Shown here piece after piece: positions 3,896-34,170 of a DNA stretch of 34,170 nt. The stretch is from positions 1 to 34,170 of the IMG/VR virus record IMGVR_UViG_3300035034_000631. One strand, written 5' to 3'. Both the position numbers and the translations under genes were made by a program. The stretch comes from a virus. Numbering within the stretch: the first letter of the stretch is position 1; the number at the start of each line of letters is the position of its first letter. The notes below the pieces were generated by a model. That model had not been told where the DNA came from and searched no databases. It was given only the letters and a program-made list of their open reading frames with translations.

Positions 3896-6094
3896 ATGAA
3901 CATACTAGGCGTGGAAATTAACAGAGCCAAACCCGCTAAAAACAACGTACTTGAAGTTGATAAAAATGACTATAGCGATAGTGTCGCAGGCAAGTTAGCC
4001 GCACGTTATGGCAGCAGCGTTACTGTTAATGGCCGCCCTACTGGTGCAGTCTACAACCAAGAAACCATTGAAGAGATTTACCAGGGCTACATATTTGCTG
4101 CGATTAAAAAGACCAGCAACACAGTGGCAGAAATTCTAAGCACACGCATTGAAACGTTTAACCCTAATGACAAAGATGAGCTGGCGCTAGATGATAAGCA
4201 CCCGTATTTGAAAGCTATTGATTTAGGCAAGCGTGATAACACCCTATTTTATAAAGGCATTGCTACATACCTAATGGTGCTTGGTGAAGCGTTTGTTGAT
4301 GCAGGTATACGTACAATGGTTGCTGGCAATATCAAGCCAGTAGGCAGCCTAGAGCTTATGCAGAGTAATGAAGTTGTGCGCACCTATGATGATGACGGCG
4401 TGCTAAAAAGCTATAAGTGGAAATACAAAACACCTGCAGGCATGGAAAAAACAGACCTGTTTGTGCCTACTAACGTTATTGCTATTACTGATTTAAACCC
4501 TTGGGATTTGCGCAAAGGTTACGGCCAGATACGCCCTATTGTAGATAAGATTGCTGTTGAGAATATGGCAACTAAACTACAGAGTGCAATTATTGCTAAC
4601 GGCATTAAGGCCCCTGGTATCGTGAGCAGCAAAGAAGAGCTTGGTGAAGATGAATACCAAGAGCTGCAGAACCAAGTTAAAAACCGCTGGACTAGCAACG
4701 ACATGGACAAGGCAGGCACGCCTATTGTTACTAACGGTGGCTTTGTTGACTACAAGAGCTTGATAGAAGACCTAGACAAACTGGCTATGGTTAAGATACG
4801 TAACATGAACCGTGATGCTTTCATGGCTGCATTGAGCGTATCTAAAACTATTCTTGGTATTGAAGAGAGCGGCACGACCCGTGAAACAAGCCGTATACAG
4901 CGTGAGCAGTTTGTGCTTGATGCGTGTATGCCAATTGCCAACGGTATCTTGAGTGCGCTAAACCAAGACTACATTAACAGCTACCCTGTTGAGTACGCCA
5001 AAAAACCTATTAAGATGCGGGCTATTGCACCTATTGAAAAAGACCTAGAGCAAGAGCAAGGTGAAGCCAAGCTTAATAAAGAAAAAGCTGAAACGTTTAA
5101 AACCTACATTGAAGCAGGCACTGACCCGCAGCAGGCTGCAGAGCTTGCAGGCATTACATTAAAAGATGATGCAACAATTATAGTTACACCACGCCCAATA
5201 TTGGTACCGCCTGTGGCTGCACCTAACGCTGCCCCTGCGCCTAATGTGAATATACAGAACCATAACCACAGCCACGACAATGACGAGCCTGTGGGCATAC
5301 CTGATGTGAATAAGAACGCATTGAGCAAGGCAGAACTGACCAAGCTTGAGAAAGCAGAAGCGGGCCTTAAGACTGAGATACGCCAATTAGATACTGGCCT
5401 TGGTGAGAAGTACATAAAGAACATAAACAATGTGAGCGCTGATGAACAGCAAGAATACATTGGCAATGTTGCTAAAGCTTTGGTTGCCTACAACACAGTG
5501 AGCATTACCATATACGGTGCGCAGCGTGCGGCCCTAATGGCTAAAGACTTTGGCGTTGATGCAATAGCCTTTGACTACAATGATGCAGTGCGCAAGATTA
5601 TTGAGCAGCGTATGACCAAGGTAGCTAACGGCCACTTTGCTACAGTTGATAAAGAAATTACTGGCGCTATTAGCAAGGCCAACGCTGACAACCTGCCACG
5701 CAAAGAAGTGATTAAGGCAGTGCGTGAGAAAGTACAGAACCAAGTAGCCACCTGGCAAGTAGAGCGCCTAGTGCAAACTGAGGTTAGCAATGCGTTTAAC
5801 CAGTCTACGTTTTTTGCAGACAAGCAATTTATAGACGGCAACGGCTACACCAACAGAGCCTACAAAGTGTGGCGTACTAACAGCCCAAACCCTTGCCCGT
5901 TTTGTACAGGCCAGAGCGGCACGCAGGTACCGTTTGAAGATAACTTCTTTAACGTAGGTGATGTGGCCGAGGGTACGGCATCTACTGCTGACGGCAAGCG
6001 CAAGCAAGTCTACTACCCTGTGCGCTTTGTTGATATTAACGCAGGTGGCCTACACCCTAACTGTCACTGTGACTATAAGCTGGTAATTGAGTAA
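3896..6094 (+). CDS. Portal protein fused to MuF (SPP1 gp7-like) domain
   Basis: The 732-aa product has an N-terminal portal domain (about 1-400; IYQGYIFAAIKKTSNTVAE, the YGQIRPIVDKIA helix and SGTTRETSRIQREQF are typical of HK97-type portals). A Pro/Ala/His/Asp-rich linker (about 430-475, with NIQNHNHSHDNDEP) leads to a C-terminal minor head protein domain ending in PCPFC ... HPNCHCDYKL, the cysteine/histidine signature of the Mu F/SPP1 gp7 family. The two are usually separate adjacent genes; here they form one reading frame with no internal stop. The portal is the dodecameric DNA-entry pore; the MuF domain would lie inside the head. It overlaps the next gene by one base (TAATG). Confidence 0.9.
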   Translation: MNILGVEINRAKPAKNNVLEVDKNDYSDSVAGKLAARYGSSVTVNGRPTGAVYNQETIEEIYQGYIFAAIKKTSNTVAEILSTRIETFNPNDKDELALDDKHPYLKAIDLGKRDNTLFYKGIATYLMVLGEAFVDAGIRTMVAGNIKPVGSLELMQSNEVVRTYDDDGVLKSYKWKYKTPAGMEKTDLFVPTNVIAITDLNPWDLRKGYGQIRPIVDKIAVENMATKLQSAIIANGIKAPGIVSSKEELGEDEYQELQNQVKNRWTSNDMDKAGTPIVTNGGFVDYKSLIEDLDKLAMVKIRNMNRDAFMAALSVSKTILGIEESGTTRETSRIQREQFVLDACMPIANGILSALNQDYINSYPVEYAKKPIKMRAIAPIEKDLEQEQGEAKLNKEKAETFKTYIEAGTDPQQAAELAGITLKDDATIIVTPRPILVPPVAAPNAAPAPNVNIQNHNHSHDNDEPVGIPDVNKNALSKAELTKLEKAEAGLKTEIRQLDTGLGEKYIKNINNVSADEQQEYIGNVAKALVAYNTVSITIYGAQRAALMAKDFGVDAIAFDYNDAVRKIIEQRMTKVANGHFATVDKEITGAISKANADNLPRKEVIKAVREKVQNQVATWQVERLVQTEVSNAFNQSTFFADKQFIDGNGYTNRAYKVWRTNSPNPCPFCTGQSGTQVPFEDNFFNVGDVAEGTASTADGKRKQVYYPVRFVDINAGGLHPNCHCDYKLVIE

Positions 6095-12314: not shown

Positions 12315-14653
12315 ACCAGGGCGGCACAGTCACAGTTGACCTAGAGTTAAATGATAGAGAATTTAACGCCGCCCTTGGCCGTGCTGATAGCAAGGCCGCA
12401 CAGTTTACTGACAAAATGGACGCACGGGCCAAGAAGCTTGGTGACTTTGGCAAGAAGATGACTGCAGCAGTAACGCTACCAATTGTTGGTGGCTTTACTC
12501 TTGCAGCCAAAAGTGCTATTGACTTTGAGAGTAGGCTAGCAGATGTTAGTACGCTTATCACAGGTGACAGCACGCAGGCAGTTGGTGAATTAAAAGACGG
12601 CATACTTGAGCTAACAAAAACTGTACCTAAGAGCGCAGATGACCTAGGGGCCGGTGCATATTCAATTGTTTCTGCAGGTATCAGTGACACAAGTGAAGCG
12701 CTGAAAGTATTAAAAGACAGTGGCCGCCTGGCTACTGCAGGTTTATCTACTACAGCAGAAGCAACTGACGTTATGACTAGTGCATTAAATGCCTTTGGTT
12801 ATGATGCAAGCCAGAGCGCAGACGTTGCAGATATTCTATTTAAAACGGTTAAGGCTGGTAAAACAGACGTTAGCCAGATTGCACAGGCGTTTGGTGCCAC
12901 TGCCCCTATTATCGCTGCAGCAGGTATTAGCCTTGAAGAGTTTAGTGCGGCCACTGCTGCCCTAACAACTACTGGACAGCCAGCCAGCCAGGCGCAGAAC
13001 AGCCTGCGCCAAGCCGTAGTTAGCTTGCAAAAACCTACTGCAGACATGGCCAAGCTATTCAAGCTGGCAGGTATTGAGAGTGGTGAGCAGGCGCTAAAAC
13101 AGGACGGCCTACAGAAGACCATGCTGAAATTGAACAAAGCTGCAGGCGGCAACGCAGAAGTATTGGCCCGTGCATACGGCTCTGTTGAAGCGCTTGGTGC
13201 AGCCACTGGCTTAACAGACACTGTATCTGGTGCATTTACAAATACGCTTGGCACAATGACAGAGGGCAGTGAAGCTCTTGGTGAAGCCTTTGATAAAAAT
13301 GCTGGTACTACTGGCGCACAAATGGAAAAACTAAAAAACACTTTCACGGCATTGGGTATACAGATTGGTGACAAGTTGCTGCCGTTTGTTACCGCTGTAG
13401 GTGAAAAACTAGGTGACCTTGCTAATAAGTTTGGCGGCCTTAGTGACGGCGCACAGAACGCAATATTAGTTACAGCAGGCATAGCAGCAGCGCTTGGCCC
13501 TGTGGCACTAGCATTTAGTGCACTTATAAAAGTAGGTAAAACAACAATGGCATCATTAAAAACTGCGGCCAGTGCAGCAGGCAAAGCATGGCAGGGTGTT
13601 AAATTTGTCGCAAGTTGGGCAGGAAAATTTGCCAAGATTGTAGCCAAGGGTGCAGCCGCAGCAGCGAAATTAGCCGCACAAGCTGTAAAGATTGGTGCCA
13701 AGTGGGCAGCCCAGGCTATTGTGGCCGCCGCTGGTTGGCTTGCACAGTTTGCCTTAATGATTGCCAGGGCCGTATTTACAGCTGCCGTGTTTGTGGCACA
13801 GGCTCTGATTGCCGCAGCCGCTTGGGTTGCTAGTGCAATAGCAGTTGCTGCCGCATGGTTAATAGCAATGGCACCAGTGCTGCTAGTAATAGCCGCTATA
13901 GGCTTGGCCGTATTCTTAGTTATTAAATATTGGGAACCTATAAAAGAATTTTTTGCGAGCGTGTGGCAGAAAGTCACAGACATATTTGCAAGCGTTATTG
14001 ATTGGGTTAAAAAGAACTGGCCGCTGCTACTTGCAATTATTACTGGCCCTATTGGCCTAGCTATATTGGCGGTGGTTAAAAACTTTGACAAAATCAAAGA
14101 AGTTGCAGGCAAAGTAGTTGATAAAATCAAAGGCTTTTTTGGCAGCGCAGGCACGTTTATAAAAGAAAGCTTTAGTAAAACAGTGGGTTTTATTACTGGC
14201 ATACCTGGCAAAATCATTGGCGCTCTAGGTAACATGGCCAGCCTGTTATATAACTCTGGTAAAGATTTAATACAAGGCTTGCTGGACGGCGCAGGCAGTT
14301 TACTAACTAAAATTGGTACTTTCTTTTTAGACAAAGTGCCAGGTTTTATTAAGGCCCCGTTCAAAAAAGCACTTGGCATTGCTAGCCCTAGTAAGGTGTT
14401 TGGTGACTATGGTAAAAACATTGTGGACGGCCTAGCCATTGGCGTAGATAGCAACGCCAGCAAAGCGATTGCTGCAGCAGCTAACCTAGGTAACAGCGTT
14501 GCAGGCACAGCTGCAGGCGTTGACGGTGGCGGGTTTAACGTTGGCGCAGAGGGCGCAGGCTCTGGTGGTGGTGTAACCCAAATCAATAACGTATATACTG
14601 AGTACGACATGGACAGAGTAAGCCGTGACTTAGCATGGCAGTTAACGAGGTAG
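12311..14653 (+). CDS. Tape measure protein
   Basis: The 780-aa product sets tail length; at about 0.15 nm per residue that predicts a tail near 117 nm. Residues 60-300 match the tape-measure core (ESRLADVSTLITGDSTQAV, TTAEATDVMTSALNAFGYD, TTGQPASQAQNSLRQAV). Hydrophobic stretches at about 384-408, 466-540 and 568-590 are likely the membrane-active part released during DNA entry; 466-540 is a run of alanine-rich WLA/AAAW repeats. The end (KKALGIASPSKVFGDYGKNIVDGLAIG) is the usual tape-measure tail motif. Confidence 0.92.
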   Translation: MNQGGTVTVDLELNDREFNAALGRADSKAAQFTDKMDARAKKLGDFGKKMTAAVTLPIVGGFTLAAKSAIDFESRLADVSTLITGDSTQAVGELKDGILELTKTVPKSADDLGAGAYSIVSAGISDTSEALKVLKDSGRLATAGLSTTAEATDVMTSALNAFGYDASQSADVADILFKTVKAGKTDVSQIAQAFGATAPIIAAAGISLEEFSAATAALTTTGQPASQAQNSLRQAVVSLQKPTADMAKLFKLAGIESGEQALKQDGLQKTMLKLNKAAGGNAEVLARAYGSVEALGAATGLTDTVSGAFTNTLGTMTEGSEALGEAFDKNAGTTGAQMEKLKNTFTALGIQIGDKLLPFVTAVGEKLGDLANKFGGLSDGAQNAILVTAGIAAALGPVALAFSALIKVGKTTMASLKTAASAAGKAWQGVKFVASWAGKFAKIVAKGAAAAAKLAAQAVKIGAKWAAQAIVAAAGWLAQFALMIARAVFTAAVFVAQALIAAAAWVASAIAVAAAWLIAMAPVLLVIAAIGLAVFLVIKYWEPIKEFFASVWQKVTDIFASVIDWVKKNWPLLLAIITGPIGLAILAVVKNFDKIKEVAGKVVDKIKGFFGSAGTFIKESFSKTVGFITGIPGKIIGALGNMASLLYNSGKDLIQGLLDGAGSLLTKIGTFFLDKVPGFIKAPFKKALGIASPSKVFGDYGKNIVDGLAIGVDSNASKAIAAAANLGNSVAGTAAGVDGGGFNVGAEGAGSGGGVTQINNVYTEYDMDRVSRDLAWQLTR

Positions 14654-21956: not shown

Positions 21957-22127
21957 ATGAAAACACTACTAACATTTATTGGCGGCATGGCCCTAGGCGC
22001 ATTGCTGCTGTACGCTTTCTTGTGGTACCAGGTTATTGGCAAGGTAGATGAAACATTTTGCCAGATTAGAAGCGGCGGCGTGACTATTGAACGTGAAGCA
22101 TATTGCAAGAAACTACTTGACAACTAA
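21957..22127 (+). CDS. Small single-pass membrane protein, 56 aa
   Basis: The peptide begins MKTLLTFIGGMALGALLLYAFLWYQVIG, one transmembrane helix, followed by a short tail with two cysteines (ETFCQIRSG, EAYCKKLLDN). The tail would be outside if the helix is a signal anchor. It lies after the lysis cassette and may be a spanin-like or lysis accessory peptide, which is a guess. Its 3' end overlaps the -35 of the next promoter. Confidence 0.6.
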   Translation: MKTLLTFIGGMALGALLLYAFLWYQVIGKVDETFCQIRSGGVTIEREAYCKKLLDN

Positions 22128-24151: not shown

Positions 24152-24164
24152 TTTAAAAACTCGC

Positions 24165-24191: not shown

Positions 24192-24222
24192 ATTGAAGTA
24201 CCATTTAACGAAAGGGCAAACA

Positions 24223-25065
24223 ATGGCAGATGAAAATGCTGTAGCTAATACAGCGCCAAAAGAATTAACAGAAGCGCAGCAACGTGCTGCAAAAACGAGA
24301 GATAAGAAAAAAGTTATACGCCGCCGCTATGGTGAGTTTATACCTAAGGGCGGTGACCCCGTAGCATTTTACAAACAGTGGAAAGCAAGTATATTTGCAG
24401 ACCCTGATGATGCAGATGATGAAACAATGTACTTTGTGTTGGCCCAGGCTAACGCACTAGGCATTGACCCTACTGTGCCAAAGCAGATTTATGCGCTGCC
24501 GTTCAATACTAAGAACAAAAAAACGCAGCAGTATGAAAAAAAGTACAACATAGTTATTGGCATTGAAGCCATGATTGCTATTGCTGACCGCACAGGCCAG
24601 TACGGCGGTACTACTAAACCTGAATATGAATATGCTATTGACCAGGACGGCAAGGCCCAGCTAGATGCTTTAATTAGCTGTACTATAGGTGTGCATAAGA
24701 TTGTACAAGGCGTGCTAGTGACCAGTGAGCAAACAGTATATTTTGAAGAGTACACAACGGGGTATAACCTGTGGAAAAGCAAACCAAAAACTATGTTAAA
24801 AAAGGTGGCCCTGGCGCATGCGCTGCGTGCTACGTTTAGTGCATTAAAAGCTGTGAATATATCAGAAGAGCTTGAGCGTGGTGATGTGATTGAGCAGGAC
24901 GGCAACGGCAATGTAATTGAAACAAACACCACTGCAGCCCTGCAGAGCAAGGCTAAAGCCTGCAAAACATTAGATGAGCTGCAAGTGTACAATGACAGCC
25001 TGAGTGCTGCTGACAAGGCTAAGGCACGGCCATACATTGAAGCTAGATTTAACGAGATAGGCTAA
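24223..25065 (+). CDS. recT: RecT/Bet-family single-strand annealing protein
   Basis: The 280-aa product has the RecT/Bet core: FVLAQANALGIDPTVPKQIYALPF (71-94), then VIGIEAMIAIADRTGQYGG (111-129), and WKSKPKTMLKKVALAHALRATF (184-205), the conserved PxTMLKKVA...LR helix. It anneals complementary single strands exposed by the exonuclease encoded next. ATG 24223 is chosen because GAAAGGGC lies just upstream, while the upstream frame extension crosses the promoter leader. The C-terminus (AACKTLDELQVYND...) is an added helical tail. Confidence 0.88.
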   Translation: MADENAVANTAPKELTEAQQRAAKTRDKKKVIRRRYGEFIPKGGDPVAFYKQWKASIFADPDDADDETMYFVLAQANALGIDPTVPKQIYALPFNTKNKKTQQYEKKYNIVIGIEAMIAIADRTGQYGGTTKPEYEYAIDQDGKAQLDALISCTIGVHKIVQGVLVTSEQTVYFEEYTTGYNLWKSKPKTMLKKVALAHALRATFSALKAVNISEELERGDVIEQDGNGNVIETNTTAALQSKAKACKTLDELQVYNDSLSAADKAKARPYIEARFNEIG

Positions 25066-25919
25066 TGCGCTACGTTGAAACAAAACAGCGCAGTGATGAA
25101 TGGTTTAAACTGCGGCTAGGCAAGGTGACTGGTAGCCGCATTAAAGATGTTGTTGGCATGACAGCTAGCGGCCAGTACTTAAAAAAGCGTGAAGACTACA
25201 AGCGTGAGCTAGTGAGTGAGCGCATTGTTGGCATACTTGGCCGCAAAGATGTGTACGTTACACCTGCCATGCAGTGGGGTACTATGAATGAAGATGCTGC
25301 ACGCACAACCTACATGTTGCGCACCCGCAACAAAGTCACAGAAGAGGGCTTTTGTATTTGGCAGCGTGAAGATGATAACGGCAACATGAAAGACCTTGCT
25401 GTTGGTGTGAGTACAGACGGCCTGGTTAATGATGACGGCAACCTAGAGGTTAAATGTTTAGAGAGCCACAACCACCTGTACAAAATCATTAGAGAAAATA
25501 TGCAGTTTGATGCAGAAGACCAGCTTGTGCGCACACTACCAGAAGAGTTTAAGGCGCAAGTGCAGGGCCAGCTAATGGTTACTGGCCGCCAGTACTGTGA
25601 TTTTGTAGGCTATGACAGCCGTGTGCCAGTGGGCTTAGATTTATTTGCGCTGCGTGTTGAGCGTGATGAAGATTACATAATGTTTTTAGAGTACGAAATA
25701 CTGCAGTTTTTGGCAGAGGTTGAGCGAGATTTTAAATACTTCTTGCAGTACCTGCCTATTGCAGAGCGTGTGTGCCTAGAGTGCGGCGTTGTATTTGTTG
25801 ACCAGGTGAGTGCCTGCGGTGACTGTATGAGCGGCAACACACAGATGACTGAGGTGCTGCAAGCGCCTAAGTATAAACTTACAGGAGTTGAAGAGCTGCT
25901 GCAGGTGGGCAAGGCATAA
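25065..25919 (+). CDS. YqaJ-type viral recombinase exonuclease with C-terminal zinc ribbon
   Basis: The 284-aa protein is a lambda-exonuclease-like nuclease: QRSDEWFKLRLGKVTGSRI (8-26), MQWGTMNEDAARTTY (65-79), STDGLVNDDGNLEVKC (116-131, supplying the metal-binding Asp and the ExK) and VQGQLMVTG (167-175). It digests 5' ends to expose strands for the RecT partner and starts inside its stop codon (TAATG). Past the nuclease, CLECGVVFVDQVSACGDC (238-255) is a four-cysteine zinc ribbon, which most YqaJ proteins lack. Confidence 0.88.
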   Translation: MRYVETKQRSDEWFKLRLGKVTGSRIKDVVGMTASGQYLKKREDYKRELVSERIVGILGRKDVYVTPAMQWGTMNEDAARTTYMLRTRNKVTEEGFCIWQREDDNGNMKDLAVGVSTDGLVNDDGNLEVKCLESHNHLYKIIRENMQFDAEDQLVRTLPEEFKAQVQGQLMVTGRQYCDFVGYDSRVPVGLDLFALRVERDEDYIMFLEYEILQFLAEVERDFKYFLQYLPIAERVCLECGVVFVDQVSACGDCMSGNTQMTEVLQAPKYKLTGVEELLQVGKA

Positions 25920-32974: not shown

Positions 32975-33128
32975 TAACATGTTTTATGTATCAGTAATTT
33001 TAAGCGCATTTGCAGCAATGGCATTAATCACAATAACGGCCAGCCTGCTAATTAGCCTTAAGAGTTTAGAGGTTTACATTACTTACGTGTGGCAGCCAGA
33101 AACAGAGCAGGTGCAGCATGCAAACTAA
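32958..33128 (+). CDS. Small membrane protein, 56 aa
   Basis: MKAVVSNMFYVSVILSAFAAMALITITASLLISLKSLEV is one strong transmembrane helix, followed by a short polar tail. Its start overlaps the RHH gene and its end overlaps the Stealth-like fragment, in the phage style. Function unknown. Confidence 0.55.
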   Translation: MKAVVSNMFYVSVILSAFAAMALITITASLLISLKSLEVYITYVWQPETEQVQHAN

Positions 33129-33219
33129 AGATTTAGATATTGTCTATATTGTGCGACCTGGCGAAGTTAACGAAGAGTTGAGGTATAGCCTACGTAGCGT
33201 GGCAAAAAATGGGATATAG
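33118..33219 (+). pseudogene. Stealth-like glycosyltransferase, N-terminal fragment
   Basis: The 33-residue ORF reads MQTKDLDIVYIVRPGEVNEE then LRYSLRSVAKN, the diagnostic start of the same Stealth-like family whose C-terminus is at 132-458. It stops at TAG 33217 soon after the sequence changes character. At A-AAA-AAT (33204-33210), a classic -1 slippery heptamer, slipping would open a frame running to TAA at 33402; but that part belongs to the foreign block and shows no similarity to the expected middle of the gene. ATG 33118 overlaps the previous gene, the normal phage arrangement. Confidence 0.6.
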
Positions 33220-33404
33220 AAGAAGTAATACTTGAGGCATTTGGCGAAAGAGTTGATAAGGAACACGATTGGATTGTAAAAATCCGTAGTTACATACACC
33301 AGCTAAACCAAAAAGTGATGCTCGCATCAAGTGGCAGAGTTGATGACTTTTTTGTATTAGACGGTATAGACGTTTACGTTAATCCAAAATACTTCAATCT
33401 GTAA
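33210..33404 (+). pseudogene. 5'-truncated plasmid ORF (frame open to 33404)
   Basis: From TGG 33210 the frame reads WDIEEVILEAFGERVDKEHD and on through IVKIRSYIHQLNQKVMLASS to NPKYFNL, then TAA. It looks like real coding sequence (codon choice, no stops) but has no start codon near its 5' end, so its N-terminus was lost at the junction near 33208. Family not recognised. Confidence 0.45.
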
Positions 33405-33412
33405 ATAGAGAG

Positions 33413-33441
33413 TTATCCACAGATTTAAATGGTTTAAATAC
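33413..33441 (+). promoter_or_regulatory. DnaA box and AT-rich repeat (possible plasmid origin)
   Basis: TTATCCACA (33413-33421) is a perfect DnaA box; ATTTAAATGGTTTAAATA follows. A DnaA box beside AT-rich DNA and a Rep-like gene start fits the origin region of a small plasmid. Confidence 0.5.
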
Positions 33442-33454
33442 AGCCATCTTCTTA

Positions 33455-33670
33455 ATGGGTTATATGCAAGGACAGAGTAACCAGAAGAAAAGAAAAGATG
33501 TAAAGGATAGCGTACCTGAATTGAATGGTCAGGCACTTCACAACTTGGTCGGTTTCTTTGACGTGCTTATTCAAATGGACCTTGCTCAAAAAGTAAGTAA
33601 TGAAATAAGGAGCAAAGAAGATGACAGTGATTTACAAAGTAATTCAAAAAACACTACGAAAACTGATTGA
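33455..33670 (+). CDS. Hypothetical plasmid-type protein, 71 aa
   Basis: A hydrophilic protein with a KKRKD basic patch, a central helix (LNGQALHNLVGFFDVLIQMDLAQKVSNEI) and a polar tail. ATG 33455 or 33464; no strong ribosome site. It overlaps the next small ORF by 50 bases. In the foreign block. Unrecognised. Confidence 0.5.
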   Translation: MGYMQGQSNQKKRKDVKDSVPELNGQALHNLVGFFDVLIQMDLAQKVSNEIRSKEDDSDLQSNSKNTTKTD

Positions 33671-33743
33671 TTATTTGATGACTTGTTGGCTATGGTCAAA
33701 CAAACGTCAAAAACAGGCTGAGGAACGTAAGAGATGCAAATAA
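33621..33743 (+). CDS. 40-aa ORF in foreign block
   Basis: MTVIYKVIQKTLRKLIDYLM then TCWLWSNKRQKQAEERKRCK: a short amphipathic, basic-tailed peptide with an excellent AAGGAG ribosome site (33607-33612) eight bases before its ATG. The stop overlaps the start of the SpoVG-like gene (ATGCAAATAA), so it may couple its translation. No family. Confidence 0.45.
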   Translation: MTVIYKVIQKTLRKLIDYLMTCWLWSNKRQKQAEERKRCK

Positions 33744-34045
33744 GTGAAGTAACTCTAATACCAGTTAAACCTGTGAATGGTCTAGTAGCATTTGCCAGTT
33801 GCGTTATAGATAGCGAACTGTTTATTGGCTCTATCGGCGTTCATAAACGGCTTGATGGCTCTGGTTATCGCATTACCTACCCTACGAAAAGGATAGGCTC
33901 AAAACAGCTCAATTATTTTCATCCGTTGTCTAAACAGACAGGAAATTTAATTGAACAAGCGATAACTAAAAAATGCTTTGAGATATTTGAAAGAAGTGAT
34001 GAACAATATGATAGACACGGTAAAACTGCTCATACCAATTTATGA
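33734..34045 (+). CDS. spoVG: SpoVG-family protein
   Basis: The 103-aa product matches SpoVG: ISEVTLIPVKPVNGLVAFASCVIDSELFIGSIGVHKR then GYRITYPTKRIGSKQLNYFHPL. SpoVG proteins bind DNA/RNA as small regulators and are often carried by plasmids and phages. The end (ERSDEQYDRHGKTAHTNL) overlaps the Rep-like start by 38 bases. It is in the foreign block. Confidence 0.75.
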   Translation: MQISEVTLIPVKPVNGLVAFASCVIDSELFIGSIGVHKRLDGSGYRITYPTKRIGSKQLNYFHPLSKQTGNLIEQAITKKCFEIFERSDEQYDRHGKTAHTNL

Positions 34046-34170
34046 CCCTATGATGTTAAGACGTGGTGCGTTTAGACCAATGAGCGTTGAGCAAATTGCC
34101 AATAGTCGTGGTCTAGCGATGACATATCTTAATCCATCTAAGGTTTACGCAAAACAAGGTAAGTATATGC
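34008..34170 (+). pseudogene. Plasmid Rep-like protein, 5' part of truncated ORF
   Basis: Starts MIDTVKLLIPIYDPMMLRRG at ATG 34008 and continues through the circular junction to TAA at 130-132 (55 residues). Resembles the start of small-plasmid replication proteins; the remaining few hundred residues are missing because the foreign block ends at base 127. Confidence 0.4.
34044..34170. repeat. Terminal direct repeat, right copy
   Basis: Identical to bases 1-127; see the left copy. The contig thus closes on itself inside the truncated Rep-like gene. Confidence 0.9.

Follow-up and report, generated by a model that had tools for sequence, protein, structure and literature searches.

Does the break in a sugar-transferase-like gene of a metagenomic phage mark the capture of foreign DNA, or a chimeric contig that closed on itself? 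The locus belongs to one virus record, 34,170 bases long (the whole stretch analysed, hereafter the window), the genome of a tailed phage of the siphophage type, and the two parts of the gene lie near its opposite ends, both on the plus strand.

The split gene and the block within it

The N-terminal fragment (33118-33210; product MQTKDLDIVYIVRPGEVNEELRYSLRSVAKN; stop codon at 33217-33219) matched positions 2-26 of the Stealth-like family phrog_7999 (E 1e-7), and the C-terminal fragment (128-458), whose open frame extends back to base 120, matched positions 130-229 of the same family over bases 132-458 (E 7e-22). The family is 230 positions long. Alignment to intact phage homologues showed that positions 27-129 (~103 codons, ~310 bp), including the NDDFF motif, are missing and that a block of other DNA stands in their place; both terminal blocks of phrog_7999 are therefore present in the window, and a continuous frame with NDDFF is absent. 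These results bear out the sequence-only reading, which had described a sugar-transferase-like gene whose middle, probably over a hundred codons, had been replaced by foreign DNA rather than cleanly interrupted, and had proposed comparing its fragments with Stealth-like phage proteins. Judged from its frame, the split gene is most likely inactivated, and no full product would be possible.

The intact relatives of this gene are found in actinobacteriophages and match Stealth_CR2 weakly. Mycobacterium phage Malthus gp6, Streptomyces phage TurkishDelight gp22 and Microbacterium phage Cece gp215 all align at both ends with the two fragments, and the Malthus gene, like that in the window, lies shortly upstream of the terminase, whereas the window gene lacks the NDDFF-bearing middle of these proteins. 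No near relatives of the phage, or of the split gene, were found.

The block spans ~33204-34170, so that its length, previously given as 963 bp, is corrected to about 967 bp. Its GC content is 36.7%, whereas no 960-nt window in the phage part falls below 41.3%, in agreement with the difference in composition noted before. The edges proposed earlier, a sharp one near 33207 and another at 132-134, had to be moved. At the left junction (33204-33210), the bases AAAAAAT encode A-K-N if read with the phage gene and K-K-W if read with that of the element, so that a stretch of 7 bases or more could derive from either parent and suits both reading frames. At the right junction, the match to the donor described below runs to base 34170, which is equivalent to base 127, and the next base is C in 11 of 11 relatives and A at base 128 of the window.

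Four genes, all on the plus strand, make up the block, and, as had been proposed, those at its two ends are truncated. The first (33204-33404), of no recognised function, retains the C-terminal 65 residues of a protein that has 435 aa in the element copy L008, and shows 60-65% identity to L008, L011 and L012. The intergenic gap that follows holds a DnaA-box-like TTATCCACA and then GATTTAAA (33413-33421, plus strand); this predicted box is the only one of its kind in the window, and, of five relatives inspected, three have a related box at the corresponding position. A small intact gene, also of no recognised function, comes next (33455-33670; 47-59% identity in L008-L012), followed by an intact SpoVG-like gene (33734-34045; 69-73% identity to its best Saccharibacteria relatives), which matched Pfam SpoVG with an E of 5.8e-5, below the gathering score, a weak but real similarity. 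Both the DnaA box and the SpoVG-like gene had been recognised from the letters. The last gene, Rep-like, begins at 33999 and is cut at the right junction (34170) after 57 of about 375 codons (MNNMIDTVKLL...KYM), its frame ending at a stop codon just within the phage DNA (130-132). The MIDTVKLL protein gave no convincing match in Pfam, PHROG, NCBIfam or PDB, and its predicted structure had a pLDDT of 36.

A Saccharibacterial source for the block

The block had been taken for a captured piece of a plasmid replicon, and a search of plasmids had been proposed. This origin was not upheld: there was no DNA match among 72,556 plasmids and no protein match for the Rep-like start, the only plasmid match at the protein level was a SpoVG relative (38%) on a Legionella plasmid, and an intact replication initiator is absent. 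A phage origin was likewise rejected: phages yielded neither a DNA match nor a match to the Rep-like start, and in the viral collection no Rep relative could be confirmed and exact block words were absent. Four viral contigs carried a SpoVG relative (49-52%) but lacked the rest of the block genes, and a second phage with the block was not found among the records available, from which close ones may be missing.

The colinear relatives of the block are instead chromosomal elements near tRNA-Gly in Candidatus Saccharibacteria. Saccharibacteria are tiny parasitic bacteria. With the Rep-like start as the query, five of their genomes were matched; the gene order common to these loci and the block is the large-gene 3' end, the small gene, the SpoVG-like gene and the 5' end of the MIDTVKLL gene, the large-gene 3' end being found in three of these first five genomes. 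A wider search added further genomes from the same taxonomic order with a SpoVG-like match, several of them with colinear block genes. The window block has the same four genes in the same order as the Saccharibacterial element (L008-L012, L061-L068), at a DNA identity of 68-72% over the longer matches (about 70%). In the native elements, a large serine recombinase gene follows the MIDTVKLL gene, and of the 11 loci scanned, 10 have a tRNA-Gly(GCC), which lies at the recombinase end in those whose layout was checked; these features mark the donor as a chromosomal integrative element, and one native copy lies within a 1.01-Mb contig. On gene order and similarity, then, the block is one colinear segment of an element that is associated with tRNA-Gly, encodes a serine recombinase and resides in chromosomes of Candidatus Saccharibacteria. 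It differs from that element in extent: the window holds only 967 bp of it, without the recombinase, the tRNA-Gly end and most of the Rep-like gene, and no tRNA was detected in the window. For one element-bearing genome, the DNA search of its family extended to only two genomes, and a narrow literature search yielded no published account of such an element in Saccharibacteria.

The serine recombinase of the element (L008 6155-7723, and its relatives) resembles XisF and SCCmec Ccr at scores far below their cut-offs, and its gene overlaps the tRNA-Gly gene.

The contig ends and the assembly graph

The window begins and ends with an exact direct repeat of 127 bases (1-127 and 34044-34170). The repeat sits entirely inside the block: the second copy is its final 127 bases, and the first ends exactly at the right junction. 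JGI metaSPAdes assemblies use word sizes of 33, 55, 77, 99 and 127 (PMC10604447), and the record was presumably assembled in this way at k = 127. Because 127 is the largest of these words, the repeat is best read as an overlap left by the assembler, one that joins the ends into a circle of 34,043 bp, rather than as a biological terminal repeat. The contig ends therefore meet precisely at the right junction, given that the donor match stops at 34170 (base 127) and base 128 differs; were the break arbitrary, the chance of this would be ~1 in 34,000.

We explored this coincidence with a toy k = 127 graph, in which the native flanks and the gene middle were random placeholders. Real assemblers also use read pairs and simplification, so that the toy is an argument and no proof. 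A recombinant circle alone gave no branch and no preferred break. When an element with the same block was included, the unitigs 1-33330 and 33204-127 were obtained, which, when joined, are exactly this record. Adding the wild-type phage produced a phage unitig from 128 to 33210 and shifted the break to base 128. As the joined toy unitigs reproduce the record, the window looks like recombinant phage plus donor, with no detectable wild type, and the position of the break implies, within this model, that the same sample held a donor with 127 bp or more of identical sequence. A practical rule follows: the place of a k-length terminal repeat relative to a foreign block shows which sequences coexisted in the assembly graph.

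Several of these features would also be expected of a laboratory or assembly chimera, in which template switching or misassembly fused phage sequence to abundant Saccharibacteria DNA, after which the contig closed on the common 127-mer. The microhomology at the left junction is short, as is typical of template switching; the GC content of the block is foreign to the phage; the donor sequence appears to be present in the same graph; and the joint of the circle falls within the foreign block. However, neither junction has a repeat of 127 bases, or of as few as 33, and without one, graph collapse alone would be insufficient. Two separate joins would have had to coincide in the phage gene that they struck, in the 967-bp stretch and in orientation, and any wild-type phage in the graph would have moved the break. 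The self-closed chimeric contig, which had been offered as the alternative to capture, is weakened by junctions that lie inside the contig, by the lack of an assembler-word repeat and by a break that fits recombinant plus donor. We regard an artefact as unlikely, although it keeps an appreciable chance.

The same branch pattern would probably arise if one crossover through the 967-bp block had placed the recombinant phage inside the element, where the block would then flank it as direct repeats, the circle being the excised or implied form. The order element-block-phage-block-element should have the same two branch points as the graph of recombinant plus donor, no integrase was found among the phage proteins scanned, and a related prophage is present in a Saccharibacteria chromosome. 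Nevertheless, element flanks joined to phage lack direct evidence, and an earlier capture of the block would still be required; we hold this arrangement to be improbable.

Probable capture of the block and the likely host

For a phage gene that is split around one colinear element segment, with genes cut on both sides and the contig broken at the right junction, our preferred reading is that a siphophage recently swapped ~310 bp of its Stealth-like gene for ~967 bp from a tRNA-Gly integrative element of Saccharibacteria (probability about 0.6). Both junctions fall in one phage gene, no more than ~310 bp apart, and in one element, no more than 967 bp apart, with a single orientation, a geometry that independent chimeras would rarely be expected to produce. 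Because the assembler alone cannot make the joins, and two chimeric events would have to converge on one gene and one element segment, we consider a real molecule, the integrated form included, clearly likelier than an artefact. Some points count against capture: the identical donor of at least 127 bp, whose presence in the sample is implied by the break, comes free with an in vitro chimera and needs a recent event if the capture is real, and the block has no evident benefit to the phage and was met in no second phage.

The exchange would have occurred inside an infected cell by illegitimate, microhomology-assisted recombination at two junctions; an illegitimate event is suggested because the visible homology is only ~7 bases. 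The phage encodes its own RecT-family single-strand annealing protein (24193-25065, plus strand) and, as the partner of RecT, a YqaJ-family exonuclease (25065-25919, plus strand), which are plausible agents. RecT-mediated exchange usually uses homology longer than 7 nt, which counts against this account. After the exchange, the block would have been carried along as a passenger, its two small genes intact, and the Stealth-like gene would have been dead. Its persistence as an old neutral or beneficial moron, fixed in the phage lineage and with the SpoVG-like and small genes expressed, would suit the intactness of both genes; however, cut gene ends persist at either edge of the block, and a contig break placed at the junction points to a donor copy still identical over 127 bp or more, which makes such an age very improbable. 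The proposed capture may be compared with the mosaicism of temperate phages, which are described as gaining DNA through Rad52-like recombinases (PMC3945230). As in the mosaicism described there, the window phage has a RecT with an exonuclease, and foreign DNA replaces phage DNA; unlike in that mosaicism, the donor here is not a prophage, and the junctions show no long stretch of homology.

The host was probably a member of Saccharibacteria, to judge from shared genes. A prophage in a 71.5-kb contig of a Saccharibacteria genome, with ordinary bacterial genes on both flanks, has four genes in common with the window (the terminase, two tail proteins and one more), whereas none of 80 screened viral contigs with related terminases had more than three. 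The tetranucleotide profile of the window was closest to Saccharibacteria regions, mostly from element-bearing genomes (0.30-0.34, with few controls). The portal and Stealth-like genes, however, matched only actinobacteriophages, which makes the host less certain. The terminase was set aside as a host marker: with hundreds of relatives, the best 80 of them at 43-49%, it is not host-specific. The portal match in Saccharibacteria was weak (23%). Most of what is known of Saccharibacterial phages comes from CRISPR spacer matches and prophages; some are targeted by spacers of both Saccharibacteria and Actinobacteria, the bacteria that Saccharibacteria live on (PMC10746230). If the capture is true, a piece of a Saccharibacterial element beside actinophage-like genes in one phage would be physical evidence of entry into a Saccharibacterial cell. 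More speculatively, and with a small chance of being right, this may be a Saccharibacteria phage seen soon after it took a piece of a host element, with donor and recipient in one sample, and the block could allow it to integrate into the element by homologous recombination.

Other parts of the phage genome also drew our attention. The portal gene (3896-6094) is long, at 732 aa, and the C-terminal part of its product matches minor head and head morphogenesis families, which suggests a portal-head-morphogenesis fusion. A 526-codon open frame on the minus strand (12799-14379), antisense to the tape-measure gene, is probably a by-product of codon usage. Finally, the intergenic leaders at 24153, 27691, 28877 and 30703 (and also at 22110, 22883 and 25949) carry a repeated promoter-like pattern, in which a TTGACA-like box is followed by AAAGACGTTACTGCTATA and then by AACGAAAGGGCAA ahead of the start codon.
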